Part shown: piece by piece, positions 10,939 through 35,885 of the stretch | How positions within the stretch are numbered: the stretch's first letter is position 1 | How the letters are laid out: each line of letters begins with the position of its first letter | Assembly (NCBI GenBank): GCA_018714145.1 | Contig: DVNS01000088.1 | Coordinates: 1-38,826 of the forward strand | DNA from: Candidatus Avilachnospira avistercoris | GTDB taxonomy: Bacteria; Bacillota; Clostridia; Lachnospirales; Lachnospiraceae | Direction of reading: 5' to 3' | DNA: 38,826 bases | The notes under the pieces: model-generated | The model's input: the letters and a program-made list of their open reading frames with translations, nothing else | What the model was told of the DNA's origin: nothing | The model's database searches: none | Position numbers and translations under genes: made by a program

Positions 10939-10967
10939 TTGACAAATCTGTTTTTGTGCATTATTAT
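10939..10967 (+). promoter_or_regulatory. Consensus promoter for the Met-rich leader and metNIQ
   Basis: TTGACA (10939-10944), a 17-base spacer and TATTAT (10962-10967) form a near-consensus housekeeping promoter. The predicted start is near 10974, 33 bases before the ATG of the methionine-rich ORF. The start region of the divergent DUF3842-like gene lies just upstream, and a TATAAT can be read on the minus strand over the same -10 bases. Confidence 0.85.
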
Positions 10968-11006
10968 ACGGCCCATAAGATATTTTCAGTTTGAAAGGCA
11001 GTTTCC

Positions 11007-11138
11007 ATGTTCGTAAAGACTCGTGACATGATGGATATGGCTATGATGTTCGGCATGATGATGTGCATGTGCCGAATGTTCGTGATGCCAAAATCCAATA
11101 GAGTCCGCATGGATCAGCCGTACCCTGACATCCTATGA
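11007..11138 (+). CDS. Methionine-rich 43-residue leader peptide
   Basis: Too short for the ORF track. The translation starts MFVKTRDMMDMAMMFGMM and ends PYPDIL. It has 13 Met in 43 residues, 11 of them between residues 8 and 27, plus Cys20 and Cys22. An AAAGG lies 8-12 bases before the ATG and a consensus promoter lies upstream. The next gene on the strand is metN, with an intrinsic terminator between. By analogy with trp, his and leu leaders, the likely role is to measure charged Met-tRNA by ribosome stalling. The alternative is a free-standing Met/Cys-rich microprotein that binds a metal or inserts in the membrane. The link to metNIQ is inferred from position and codon content. Confidence 0.7.
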   Translation: MFVKTRDMMDMAMMFGMMMCMCRMFVMPKSNRVRMDQPYPDIL

Positions 11139-11194
11139 TGCCGCGGGGTGATACATAAGAGGTCTTGACTAAGATCATATATCATTGTTTATTA

Positions 11195-11226
11195 CGCAGG
11201 TCTGTGCATACGGACCTGCGTTTTTT
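11195..11226 (+). terminator. Intrinsic terminator between the Met-rich ORF and metN
   Basis: The stem CGCAGGTC (11195-11202) pairs with GACCTGCG (11213-11220) across a 10-base loop and is followed by six T. It sits 57 bases after the leader ORF stop and 116 bases before metN. I see no clear promoter between it and metN, so read-through would control metNIQ expression. Confidence 0.9.
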
Positions 11227-11341
11227 GATTTCATAAAGGGCTTAGGGCAGAAAGGAAATACTCTTCATCAAAATGATTTAGTGAAGGATATGCTATTCTT
11301 GATCGGAGGAGCAGAAAGCCTGAGCCTGAAAAGGAGAAAAG

Positions 11342-12535
11342 ATGAGTTTGAAGGCTATCGACAATGAAATAAGGCTCCAAGAGGAGGAGCCAGTGAGATC
11401 CCCTGAGGCTGCAGACAGCAGTTCATCAGGGAAGGCTGAGGGCTCAGGCAATGCCAAGGGCCTAAACAATGCCAAAGGCCTAGGCAGTGCCAATGGCTCA
11501 GAGGCTTTGGACGGCTCTCTTAGTGGGGAGGATATCATCGAGCTTCGCCACATAGGTAAGGAGTTCAAGACCTCCGGAGGACCGGTGACAGCCCTCTGCG
11601 ATATCGACCTTAATATAAAGAAAGGCGAGATATTCGGCATCATAGGCCTCTCAGGAGCGGGAAAGAGCACGCTGGTGCGCTGCATCAACCTGCTGGAGGT
11701 GCCTACCACGGGAGAGGTCATATTTGAAGGCAGGAATATAGCAGCTCTCCCCGAGCGGGAGCAGCGGAAGGCAAGGCAGTCCATGGGCATGATATTCCAG
11801 CAGTTCAATCTCCTTTCCCAGAGGAATGTCCTTAAGAATATCTGCTTCCCCCTGGAGCTTGCAGGTGTGCCTAAGAAACAGGCTGAGGCGAGGGCCAAGG
11901 AGCTTCTGGGACTTGTGGGACTTTCAGACAGGGCCTGCTCCTATCCTTCCCAGCTTTCAGGCGGACAGAAGCAGAGGGTAGCCATAGCAAGAGCCATAGC
12001 CACAAACCCCAAGGTGCTGCTTTGTGACGAAGCTACCAGCGCCCTTGACCCGGATACGACGAAGTCCATACTTGAGCTCCTTCGCCGCATCAATAAGGAG
12101 TTTGGCATCACGGTCATAGTCATCACCCATGAGATGAAGGTCATAGAGGCCATATGCGACAGGGTAGCCATCATAGACCAGAGCCGAATAGCCGAGGTCG
12201 GGGCCGTGGCGGATATATTTTCAGATCCAAAGTCAAAGATAGGCCGGAGGCTCATCCTCGGGGATGCGGTGAATAACGTAAGCTTCAAGGGCAGCCGCAA
12301 GGTCAGGATAACCTTTGACGGGCGAAGCTCCATGGAACCTGTGATAGCAAATATGATACTAAGTCTCAGGGTGCCGGTGAATTTTCTTTACGCCTCCCTT
12401 AAGGACATAGGAGGCACGGCCTTCGGCCATATGATAGTCCAGCTTCCCGAGGAGGAAAGTGATGCGACAAGGGCCCTTAATTATCTTAAAGCTCAGGGCA
12501 TAAAGTACGAGGAGGTGACAGAGGCAGATGTTTAA
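11342..12535 (+). CDS. metN: Methionine ABC transporter ATP-binding protein
   Basis: The cytoplasmic ATPase of the methionine importer. It shows Walker A GLSGAGKST (about residue 101), the Q-loop region MIFQQFNLL, signature LSGGQ (about 204), Walker B LLCDEATSALD and switch His in VITHEM. The C-terminal 75 or so residues form the NIL domain, which in known MetN proteins binds L-methionine and inhibits transport. Residues about 10-58 are an unusual Gly/Ser/Ala/Asn-rich leader containing three tandem hexapeptides encoded by 18-base repeats. The start at 11342 is well supported by AAAGGAG eight bases upstream, so the extension should be translated. It overlaps metI by 8 bases. Confidence 0.96.
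   Translation: MSLKAIDNEIRLQEEEPVRSPEAADSSSSGKAEGSGNAKGLNNAKGLGSANGSEALDGSLSGEDIIELRHIGKEFKTSGGPVTALCDIDLNIKKGEIFGIIGLSGAGKSTLVRCINLLEVPTTGEVIFEGRNIAALPEREQRKARQSMGMIFQQFNLLSQRNVLKNICFPLELAGVPKKQAEARAKELLGLVGLSDRACSYPSQLSGGQKQRVAIARAIATNPKVLLCDEATSALDPDTTKSILELLRRINKEFGITVIVITHEMKVIEAICDRVAIIDQSRIAEVGAVADIFSDPKSKIGRRLILGDAVNNVSFKGSRKVRITFDGRSSMEPVIANMILSLRVPVNFLYASLKDIGGTAFGHMIVQLPEEESDATRALNYLKAQGIKYEEVTEADV
11447..11500 (+). repeat. Three 18-base in-frame tandem repeats in the metN 5' region
   Basis: Units at 11447-11464, 11465-11482 and 11483-11500 share the core CAATGCCAA(G/A)GGCCTA with the third copy diverged. They encode GNAKGL, NNAKGL and GSANGS. The units preserve the reading frame and lie only in the disordered N-terminal extension, which suggests repeat-driven growth of that segment. 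Confidence 0.8.
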
Positions 12536-13190
12536 TTCAGAGTTTATAGAGATGTTTGGTTCGGAGATAGGAGCCACCCTTTATATGGTCCTCGTCTCCT
12601 CTCTCGTATCCTATGTGATAGGGCTTCCGCTGGGAGTGCTCCTTGTGGTAACAGATGAAGAAGGCATACACCCGATGCCCCTTTTAAATAAGGTCGTGGG
12701 GCTCATCGTAAATCTGCTCCGCTCGGTGCCCTTCCTTATCATGATAGTCATTGCCCTGCCCCTTACAAGGGCCGTGGTGGGCACCACCCTAGGAGCTACG
12801 GCGGTCATTCCTCCCTTGGTGGTATCGGCAGCTCCCTATGTGGCCCGTATGGTGGAGTCCTCCTTTAAGGAGGTGGACCGGGGCGTCATTGAAGCAGCCA
12901 AATCCATGGGAGCCTCGACCTCGGAGATCATTCTCAAGGTGCTGATACCGGAATCAAAGCCCTCCCTGCTCGTGGGCGCAGCCATTTCCATAACTACCAT
13001 ACTTGGATATTCGGCCATGGCAGGAAACCTTGGAGGCGGCGGTCTCGGGGCCATAGCCATAAACTACGGCTACTACAGGCGGGAGCCTGTGACCATGTGG
13101 GTGGCAGTCATACTGCTGATGCTGCTGGTTCAGGTCATTCAGGAGCTGGGACTGAGGCTCGCAAGGCACAGCGACAAGAGGGCAAGATAA
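12528..13190 (+). CDS. metI: Methionine ABC transporter permease
   Basis: A 220-residue inner membrane permease with about five hydrophobic helices. The coupling (EAA) loop is visible as GVIEAAKSMGAS followed by IILKVLIPES, which contacts the MetN ATPase. Length and helix number match the MetI family. The start overlaps the last 8 bases of metN, and GAGGAGGTG about 10 bases upstream supplies the ribosome binding site. It is co-transcribed with metN and works with MetQ to import D- or L-methionine. Confidence 0.95.
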   Translation: MFNSEFIEMFGSEIGATLYMVLVSSLVSYVIGLPLGVLLVVTDEEGIHPMPLLNKVVGLIVNLLRSVPFLIMIVIALPLTRAVVGTTLGATAVIPPLVVSAAPYVARMVESSFKEVDRGVIEAAKSMGASTSEIILKVLIPESKPSLLVGAAISITTILGYSAMAGNLGGGGLGAIAINYGYYRREPVTMWVAVILLMLLVQVIQELGLRLARHSDKRAR

Positions 13191-13437: not shown

Positions 13438-14334
13438 ATGAAGAGATCCACACTTTTAACAACAGCCATCGCTATCACTGCAGTCCTTTCCCTTACAGCC
13501 TGCGGAGGCTCCAAGGAGGAGACCACTGCTGCAGCCACAGAGGCCGCTGCTGAGACTGAGGCAGCCGCAGATACCGAAGAAGCCGCTGAGGCAGATCCCG
13601 AAGAGCTTGTCGAGATAGTGGTAGGTGCAAGCCCTGCACCCCATGCAGAGATACTTGCAGCCGCAGAGCCGGTGCTCAATGAGGCTGGCTATACCCTCGA
13701 TATCGTGGAGTATACTGACTATGTTCAGCCTAATCTGGCCCTTGAAGCAGGAGAGCTCGATGCCAACTATTTCCAGCACGGACCCTATCTTGAGCAGTTC
13801 AACGTGGAGCAGGGCACGGACCTCGTAAGTGCAGGCACCATCCACTATGAGCCCTTCGGCATCTATGCAGGAAAGACCGCAAGCTTAGAAGAGCTCGCTG
13901 ATGGCGCTACCGTAGCAGTGCCCAACGATACCACCAATGAGGCAAGGGCCCTTCTGCTCCTTGAGGCACAGGGACTTCTTACGCTCAAGGAGGGCGCTGG
14001 ACTGGATGCCACAAAGAACGACATCGTAGAAAATCCCAAGGACCTTGATATCCTTGAGGTAGAGGCAGCCCAGATACCCCTTTCCCTTCAGGACGTGGAT
14101 ATAGCAGTCATCAACGGCAACTATGCCATAGATGCAGGCCTTAAGGTCAGCGATGCCCTCGCAGTAGAGGCCTCAGACTCAGAGGCAGCCGTTACCTACG
14201 GAAATGTGGTAGCAGTAAAGGCCGGCGAGGAAACCAGTGACAAGGCCCTTGCCCTTGTGGAAGCCCTTAAGAGCGATACTGTAAAGAGCTTCATCGAGGA
14301 GACCTATGAGGGCGCTGTAGTTCCGATGTTCTGA
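13438..14334 (+). CDS. metQ: Methionine-binding lipoprotein
   Basis: The substrate-binding component of the importer, belonging to the NlpA/MetQ family, 298 residues. The signal peptide ends at the lipobox LTAC (Cys21). An Ala/Glu/Thr-rich acidic linker follows (about residues 24-58), then the binding domain, starting VEIVVGASPAPHAEIL. Family landmarks include ANYFQHGPYLEQFN, AGTIHYEPFGIYAGK, VAVPNDTTNEARALLLLE, DIAVINGNYA and the C-terminal SFIEETYEGAVVPMF. AGAGGAG precedes the ATG. It is anchored to the outer membrane face and delivers methionine to MetNI. Confidence 0.96.
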   Translation: MKRSTLLTTAIAITAVLSLTACGGSKEETTAAATEAAAETEAAADTEEAAEADPEELVEIVVGASPAPHAEILAAAEPVLNEAGYTLDIVEYTDYVQPNLALEAGELDANYFQHGPYLEQFNVEQGTDLVSAGTIHYEPFGIYAGKTASLEELADGATVAVPNDTTNEARALLLLEAQGLLTLKEGAGLDATKNDIVENPKDLDILEVEAAQIPLSLQDVDIAVINGNYAIDAGLKVSDALAVEASDSEAAVTYGNVVAVKAGEETSDKALALVEALKSDTVKSFIEETYEGAVVPMF

Positions 14335-35645: not shown

Positions 35646-35774
35646 CGTACTTTTAATGCAGTACGACAAGTGGTGACTGTACACGCGCCCGGGTGTGTCC
35701 TGTTGCTTCCCGCAATCATGTTACCCGGCTCCGGCCTTATACCGGAACAACTTATCTGGTACAGTGACTTGTCG
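35646..35774 (-). promoter_or_regulatory. Structured leader of the S10 operon
   Basis: On the minus strand CGACAAGTCACTGTAC (35774-35759) can pair with GTACAGTCACCACTTGTCG (35682-35664), leaving a three-base bulge and enclosing about 75 bases with further GC-rich stems (CCGG/CCGG and ACAC-CCGGGCG-GTGT). A second hairpin, CGTACT-GCATTAAA-AGTACG (35665-35646), abuts the ribosome binding site. The sequence is a good candidate for ribosomal-protein autoregulation. I could not place a convincing promoter upstream. Confidence 0.55.
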
Positions 35775-35885
35775 CCAACTCTGTCTTGACATTTACTCCC
35801 TGCAAAAACCTCCCGGCACTTATGTATTCGCACCGACAGCAACCTTGCAGATCCTCGCTATCATGCCACAGCCTAATAAAGATAG

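Follow-up and report, generated by a model that had tools for sequence, protein, structure and literature searches.

How is a methionine importer controlled in a member of the Lachnospiraceae when its operon is preceded by a short ORF rich in Met codons? In Firmicutes, amino-acid leader control is usually exerted by T-boxes, which read tRNA charging through premature termination, and the methionine genes of this host group have previously been thought to be under S-boxes, T-boxes or repressors. The DNA analysed here, called the window, is a stretch of 38,826 nucleotides from Candidatus Avilachnospira avistercoris (contig DVNS01000088.1); the genome of this Lachnospiraceae-family bacterium is 1.57 Mb in 143 contigs and 87% complete. 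No covariance-model match to the T-box (RF00230) or to the SAM riboswitch of the S-box type (RF00162) was found in the window at gathering or loose Rfam thresholds, in agreement with an earlier note on this DNA that had seen neither RNA at the leader. The only Rfam match above cut-off in the window is an S10-Clostridia ribosomal protein leader (35769-35863, minus strand, 52.5 bits).

The leader region is flanked by a divergent DUF3842 gene on one side and by metNIQ on the other. A sigma-70-type promoter (TTGACA-17-TATTAT, 11/12 match, 10939-10967), of a type shared with the homologues, would start transcription near 10974. It is followed, all on the plus strand, by a Shine-Dalgarno-like GAAAGG (10993-10998), a leader ORF of 43 codons with 13 Met and 2 Cys (11007-11138), and an intrinsic terminator with a hairpin of 12 bp (11194-11221, -20.0 kcal/mol) and a T run that extends to 11226. 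The operon comprises metN, encoding a methionine ABC importer ATPase with a NIL domain (11342-12535), metI, encoding a MetI-type permease (12528-13190), and metQ, encoding an NlpA-family binding lipoprotein (13438-14334), all plus-strand genes assigned by domain matches; the solved relatives of the lipoprotein include MetQ methionine-binding proteins. From the promoter to metN, no second plus-strand promoter-like match was found. The earlier note had listed the consensus promoter, the Met and Cys codon counts with 11 Met within 20 codons (codons 8-27), the terminator, and the lack of a clear promoter before metN, and each of these stands; only the distance from stop codon to terminator, given as 57 bases, is corrected to 55 nt.

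The 43-residue peptide of the window, MFVKTRDMMDMAMMFGMMMCMCRMFVMPKSNRVRMDQPYPDIL, is exceptional in composition. Among the 391 ORFs of 25-70 aa that the two strands of the window contain, its Met fraction of 0.29, start excluded, ranks highest (mean 0.031, sd 0.037), and a composition-only estimate places the chance of at least 12 Met in 42 codons at about 1e-12. Pfam gave no match for this peptide, and NCBIfam no real match among four leader peptides. Between relatives, gap lengths are divisible by three in 61 of 73 cases within the ORF versus 20 of 89 in the spacer, which suggests that the ORF is translated; the Fisher p of 4e-15 is merely indicative, as the sequence pairs share history and are not independent. 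Third-position changes in the ORF are only slightly in excess, as expected of a frame made mostly of ATG codons and under constraint at the RNA level too. Within the ORF, an inverted repeat (TTCGGCA...TGCCGAA, 11049-11076, plus strand, fold of -13.6 kcal/mol) may form a pause hairpin; the repeat recurs in several relatives, so that the GMMMCMCR codons appear to serve both peptide and RNA.

The arrangement is not peculiar to the window. Further loci were collected by a MetN search of 299 Lachnospiraceae genomes followed by reading upstream, and the same order of promoter, Shine-Dalgarno sequence, Met-rich ORF, terminator, and metN is found in 48 diverged Lachnospiraceae loci, among them loci of Hungatella, Enterocloster, and Lacrimispora. 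A near-consensus promoter (at least 9/12) is present in 47/48 of these leaders, a Shine-Dalgarno sequence likewise in 47/48, and an intrinsic terminator after the ORF in all 48; within the genus, the Met-rich ORF and terminator precede six more metN orthologues and one paralogue. MxxxxxMQMNMxMMxGMxMxMCRMxxCxK is the consensus of the peptide, with a core, including MCRMxxC, that is conserved and a C-terminal part that varies. A profile of the peptide gave 18 matches in the 299 whole genomes, one per genome, each directly before metN by its coordinates; since many of the matched peptides helped to build the profile, the weight lies in the absence of other matches, and the own-genome match (E=3.7e-10) is to a peptide already included in the profile. 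The same profile found nothing beyond Lachnospiraceae in 391 Clostridia genomes. When the core DNA pattern was scanned across all GTDB species, one genome each, it returned 31 short ORFs of the Lachnospiraceae type, upstream of metN wherever the downstream sequence suffices, and in other taxa matched almost only within long unrelated ORFs. Named hosts include Hungatella hathewayi, H. effluvii, Enterocloster citroniae, Lacrimispora celerecrescens, and Clostridiales 1_7_47FAA. In L004, L005, L036, L044, and L047, where a dipeptidase gene precedes metN, no leader was found before that gene in the stretches examined. In L050, two tRNA genes lie immediately upstream of the Met-rich leader (924-1092).

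The most probable answer, and one held with high confidence on these comparisons, is that metNIQ is under ribosome-mediated transcription attenuation of the trp type, with the leader acting as a sensor of charged elongator Met-tRNA. Comparison of relatives supports the ORF, its translation, the terminator, the complementarity of three RNA segments described below (A, B, and C), and the exclusive linkage to metN. The stalling, the termination, and the direction of control, as we infer them, would run as follows. With methionine plentiful, the ribosome would pass the Met codons and segment B would be masked by it or held by segment A, the terminator (C paired with D) would form, and transcription would stop. 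With methionine scarce, the ribosome would stall in the Met run, B, lying downstream, would remain free to pair with C, the 5' arm of the terminator, and the blocked terminator would let metNIQ be transcribed. Without translation, A would pair with B and termination would be the default. Segments A, B, and C plus the terminator thus form a predicted equivalent of the 1:2, 2:3, and 3:4 layout of trp.

In the window, segment 2 (B, GCATGGATCAGC, 11107-11118, plus strand) is the candidate 5' strand of the antiterminator and is conserved in relatives, while segment 3 (C, GCAGGTCTGTGC, 11196-11207, plus strand) would serve, from its complementarity and folding, both as 5' arm of the terminator and as 3' strand of the antiterminator; the two form 11 of 12 possible base pairs. 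In the closest relative, L003, inspection of the sequence gives 13/14 B:C pairs, with a duplex of -18.5 kcal/mol. The earlier note was right in its core idea of a ribosome-mediated Met attenuator, which comparison strongly supports, and wrong about the pairing. Its antiterminator (CCGTA with TACGG and GAC with GTC, from 11111-11133) is not conserved and reaches -8.7 kcal/mol versus about -15 kcal/mol for 11107-11118; the TACGG that it took for the 5' side of the terminator sits in the loop and 3' arm; and, contrary to its caution, the conserved antiterminator is not short. The alignment of related leaders that it had suggested shows the Met-rich ORF to be conserved across the 48 loci and the terminator stem to covary strongly in relatives, with 6 of 9 consensus pairs altered on both sides.

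The consensus of B is YTGYATGGATTGTGA, and in nearly all leaders it sits within about -35 to +15 nt of the point where the stop codon ends; a recognisable B is missing from 8 of the 48. Whole-leader MAFFT alignment produced too many gaps in the spacer, so separate alignments were made for B and for the terminator. When the best partner of the terminator 5' arm was sought without constraint, it fell at B in 29/40 leaders (4.3 expected), and 82% of the pairs between B and that arm are standard in 39 sequences versus at most 46% in slid registers. Native B:C combinations outpair swapped partners (p=5e-5 for 37 loci, p=1e-4 for 19 diverged loci), with B in this and the A:B swap test chosen by sequence consensus, independent of pairing. 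Covariation is modest, with three pairs changed on both sides and a score reached in 14/500 shuffles, a consequence of B being so conserved, and what carries the case for B:C is therefore complementarity, together with position and the swap test. Shuffle z-scores per locus for the partner of C are also weak (mean -0.75), which again leaves the argument to the position and swap tests.

The opposing pairing, A:B, was compared in the same way. In 31/36 leaders (6.5 expected), B has its best partner in A, at the first Met codons of the leader ORF, and native A:B outpairs swapped combinations (p=5e-5; p=8e-4 for 16 diverged loci). This pairing of B with the opening of the Met run holds for most relatives, but not in this form for the lineage of the window, where the predicted partner is another stretch of the Met run, A' (segment 1, 11050-11067, plus strand), which would pair with B at -15.1 kcal/mol when no ribosome is present.

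Folding models, in which thermodynamic equilibrium stands as a proxy for a kinetic process, predict antitermination when ribosomes stall on Met codons. For the window RNA up to the terminator loop, folded with and without a ribosome as the earlier note had proposed, the minimum-energy structure with a ribosome placed on each of five Met codons (11028 to 11085) in turn contains B:C, an alternative that excludes the terminator; in the ribosome-free fold B:C is absent, with B sequestered upstream and the terminator left free. Over the 48 leaders, mean upstream pairing of C is 0.72-0.74 in the stalled state, 0.53 ribosome-free, and 0.41 with the ribosome at the stop codon, a model in which just the RNA downstream of the ribosome was folded. 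C stays paired upstream (above 0.5) in 16/48 leaders with the ribosome at the stop and in 29/48 without a ribosome. B of the window occupies the stretch 18-29 nt upstream of the stop codon's end, and a ribosome at the stop covers it at its edge only, so that termination in this state must lean on A':B; the state is less certain here than where B straddles or follows the stop codon.

The alternative that survives best, though we consider it unlikely, concerns the signal: the leader might sense cysteine, or methionine and cysteine jointly, instead of methionine alone. Most of the aligned peptides have at least one Cys downstream of the Met run, and other metN lineages have short ORFs with mixed Met and Cys runs, namely those of L057, L065, L068, and L084, with MMCCCC, DMMMCC, NMMMCC, and NMNMMMCC, each followed by a hairpin and a T run, which are perhaps Met/Cys attenuators of a second type. 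In the window and most relatives, however, Met codons are several-fold more numerous than Cys codons and come first. A wider proposal is that the attenuator is family-wide and reads both sulfur amino acids, Met codons preceding Cys codons, with a shortage of either charged tRNA opening the importer, the MMCCCC and NMMMCC variants tuned towards cysteine, and at least one further metN clade (L015) having gained its own Met leader; this is possible but unlikely. L015 (G004), from a metN paralogue clade mostly bearing T-boxes, has a Met-rich leader, MQSRNCMAVMYMGMMMW, and a terminator, possibly an independent gain.

A second alternative keeps the ribosome and changes the cause of its arrest: the MCRM core would stall the ribosome as a nascent peptide in response to free methionine or SAM, as in TnaC or plant CGS1. 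The conservation of MCRMxxC does exceed plain Met richness, but the CR codons also build the in-ORF hairpin, some lineages lack CR altogether (for example MMMCCVSEC), and the residues directly before the stop vary. Arrest in the Met run at high methionine would also expose B and turn the importer on, which is the wrong sign, and we regard nascent-peptide arrest as improbable. Less probable still is that the ORF encodes a small trans-acting protein rich in Met and Cys, for instance copper- or heme-binding, that lies beside metN through co-transcription only. Motifs rich in Met and Cys, MMMCMCRM among them, do resemble metal-binding peptides, and the conserved peptide core fits a functional protein; yet the ORF occurs exclusively between the metN promoter and terminator, segments A, B, and C coevolve, conservation does not extend to the C-terminal part of the peptide, and T-boxes take its place at related metN genes. 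That the locus holds a plain premature terminator and a chance ORF, with any regulation due to an unknown protein or riboswitch, is hardly credible given the conserved ORF with its codon-multiple gaps and Shine-Dalgarno sequence, the coevolution of B:C and A:B, and the lack of an Rfam match at the leader, even if intrinsic terminators before genes are common and the relative L093 has a terminator without the ORF. In L093 and L145 (G135), the promoter and a typical terminator are kept before metN and the Met-rich ORF is absent, through a natural deletion or an assembly slip; it looks like a single loss. The earlier note had named a terminator kept without such an ORF as evidence against its idea, and L093/G135 is the only such case among the inspected leaders.

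The attenuator reading with methionine as the signal places the leader beside several known systems. Like the E. coli trp leader, and those of his, leu, thr, ilv, and phe, it combines a cognate-codon run in a leader ORF with three RNA segments that compete upstream of a fourth and with an intrinsic terminator before the operon; unlike these, it uses the Met codon, precedes an importer operon, occurs in a Firmicute, and has unrelated sequence. In a comparative survey, the amino acids given attenuator motifs are His, Leu, Thr, Trp, Ile/Val, and Phe, with Met absent (PMC3766115). Leader-peptide control in Firmicutes is represented by the hisS and hisZ leader peptides of bacilli, where no Met leader was found (PMC2965389), and by a leucine-rich leader peptide in S. 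aureus (PMC5794164); these resemble the present case in host group and principle and differ in amino acid. The only precedent found is a predicted metL leader before metNIQ in Streptomyces lividans, also a short ORF, but with three Met codons, leaderless, and with no clear terminator (PMC8079986). The metL peptide, MSTTSDRTPATEATTTPGARCMCRRMCAF (PMC8079986), shares the string CMCR with that of the window, which may be chance, convergence, or homology. No report of a methionine attenuator in Firmicutes was found in the literature searched, subscription papers lying outside its coverage. What is new here is the amino-acid specificity, the sequence family, and the full set of competing segments; leader-peptide attenuation itself is classic.

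Within the genus, T-boxes precede metN paralogues of 45% identity, and L034 and L052, which fall inside the attenuator clade of metN or next to it, have a T-box where the Met leader would otherwise stand. On the MetN tree, the three leader states form clusters but require about 10 changes. These T-boxes resemble the attenuator in the function of the gene controlled and in reading tRNA charging, and differ in binding the tRNA directly and in having no ORF. Elsewhere in the genome of the window, the sole SAM riboswitch precedes metK (L001, contig 42). No B12-dependent MetH was found in this genome, 87% complete as it is, and only one match to a MetE-type C-terminal domain; the organism may accordingly rely on imported methionine.

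If the attenuator operates as proposed, it would make methionine one more amino acid that a leader-peptide attenuator, complete with a full set of competing RNA segments, can read. Translation of any leader starts with fMet-tRNA, and this switch must therefore distinguish a lack of elongator Met-tRNA from a lack of initiation. The Hungatella and Enterocloster isolates open the switch to testing. Since related metN genes carry T-boxes, the locus would be a natural case of one sensor of tRNA charging swapped for another.
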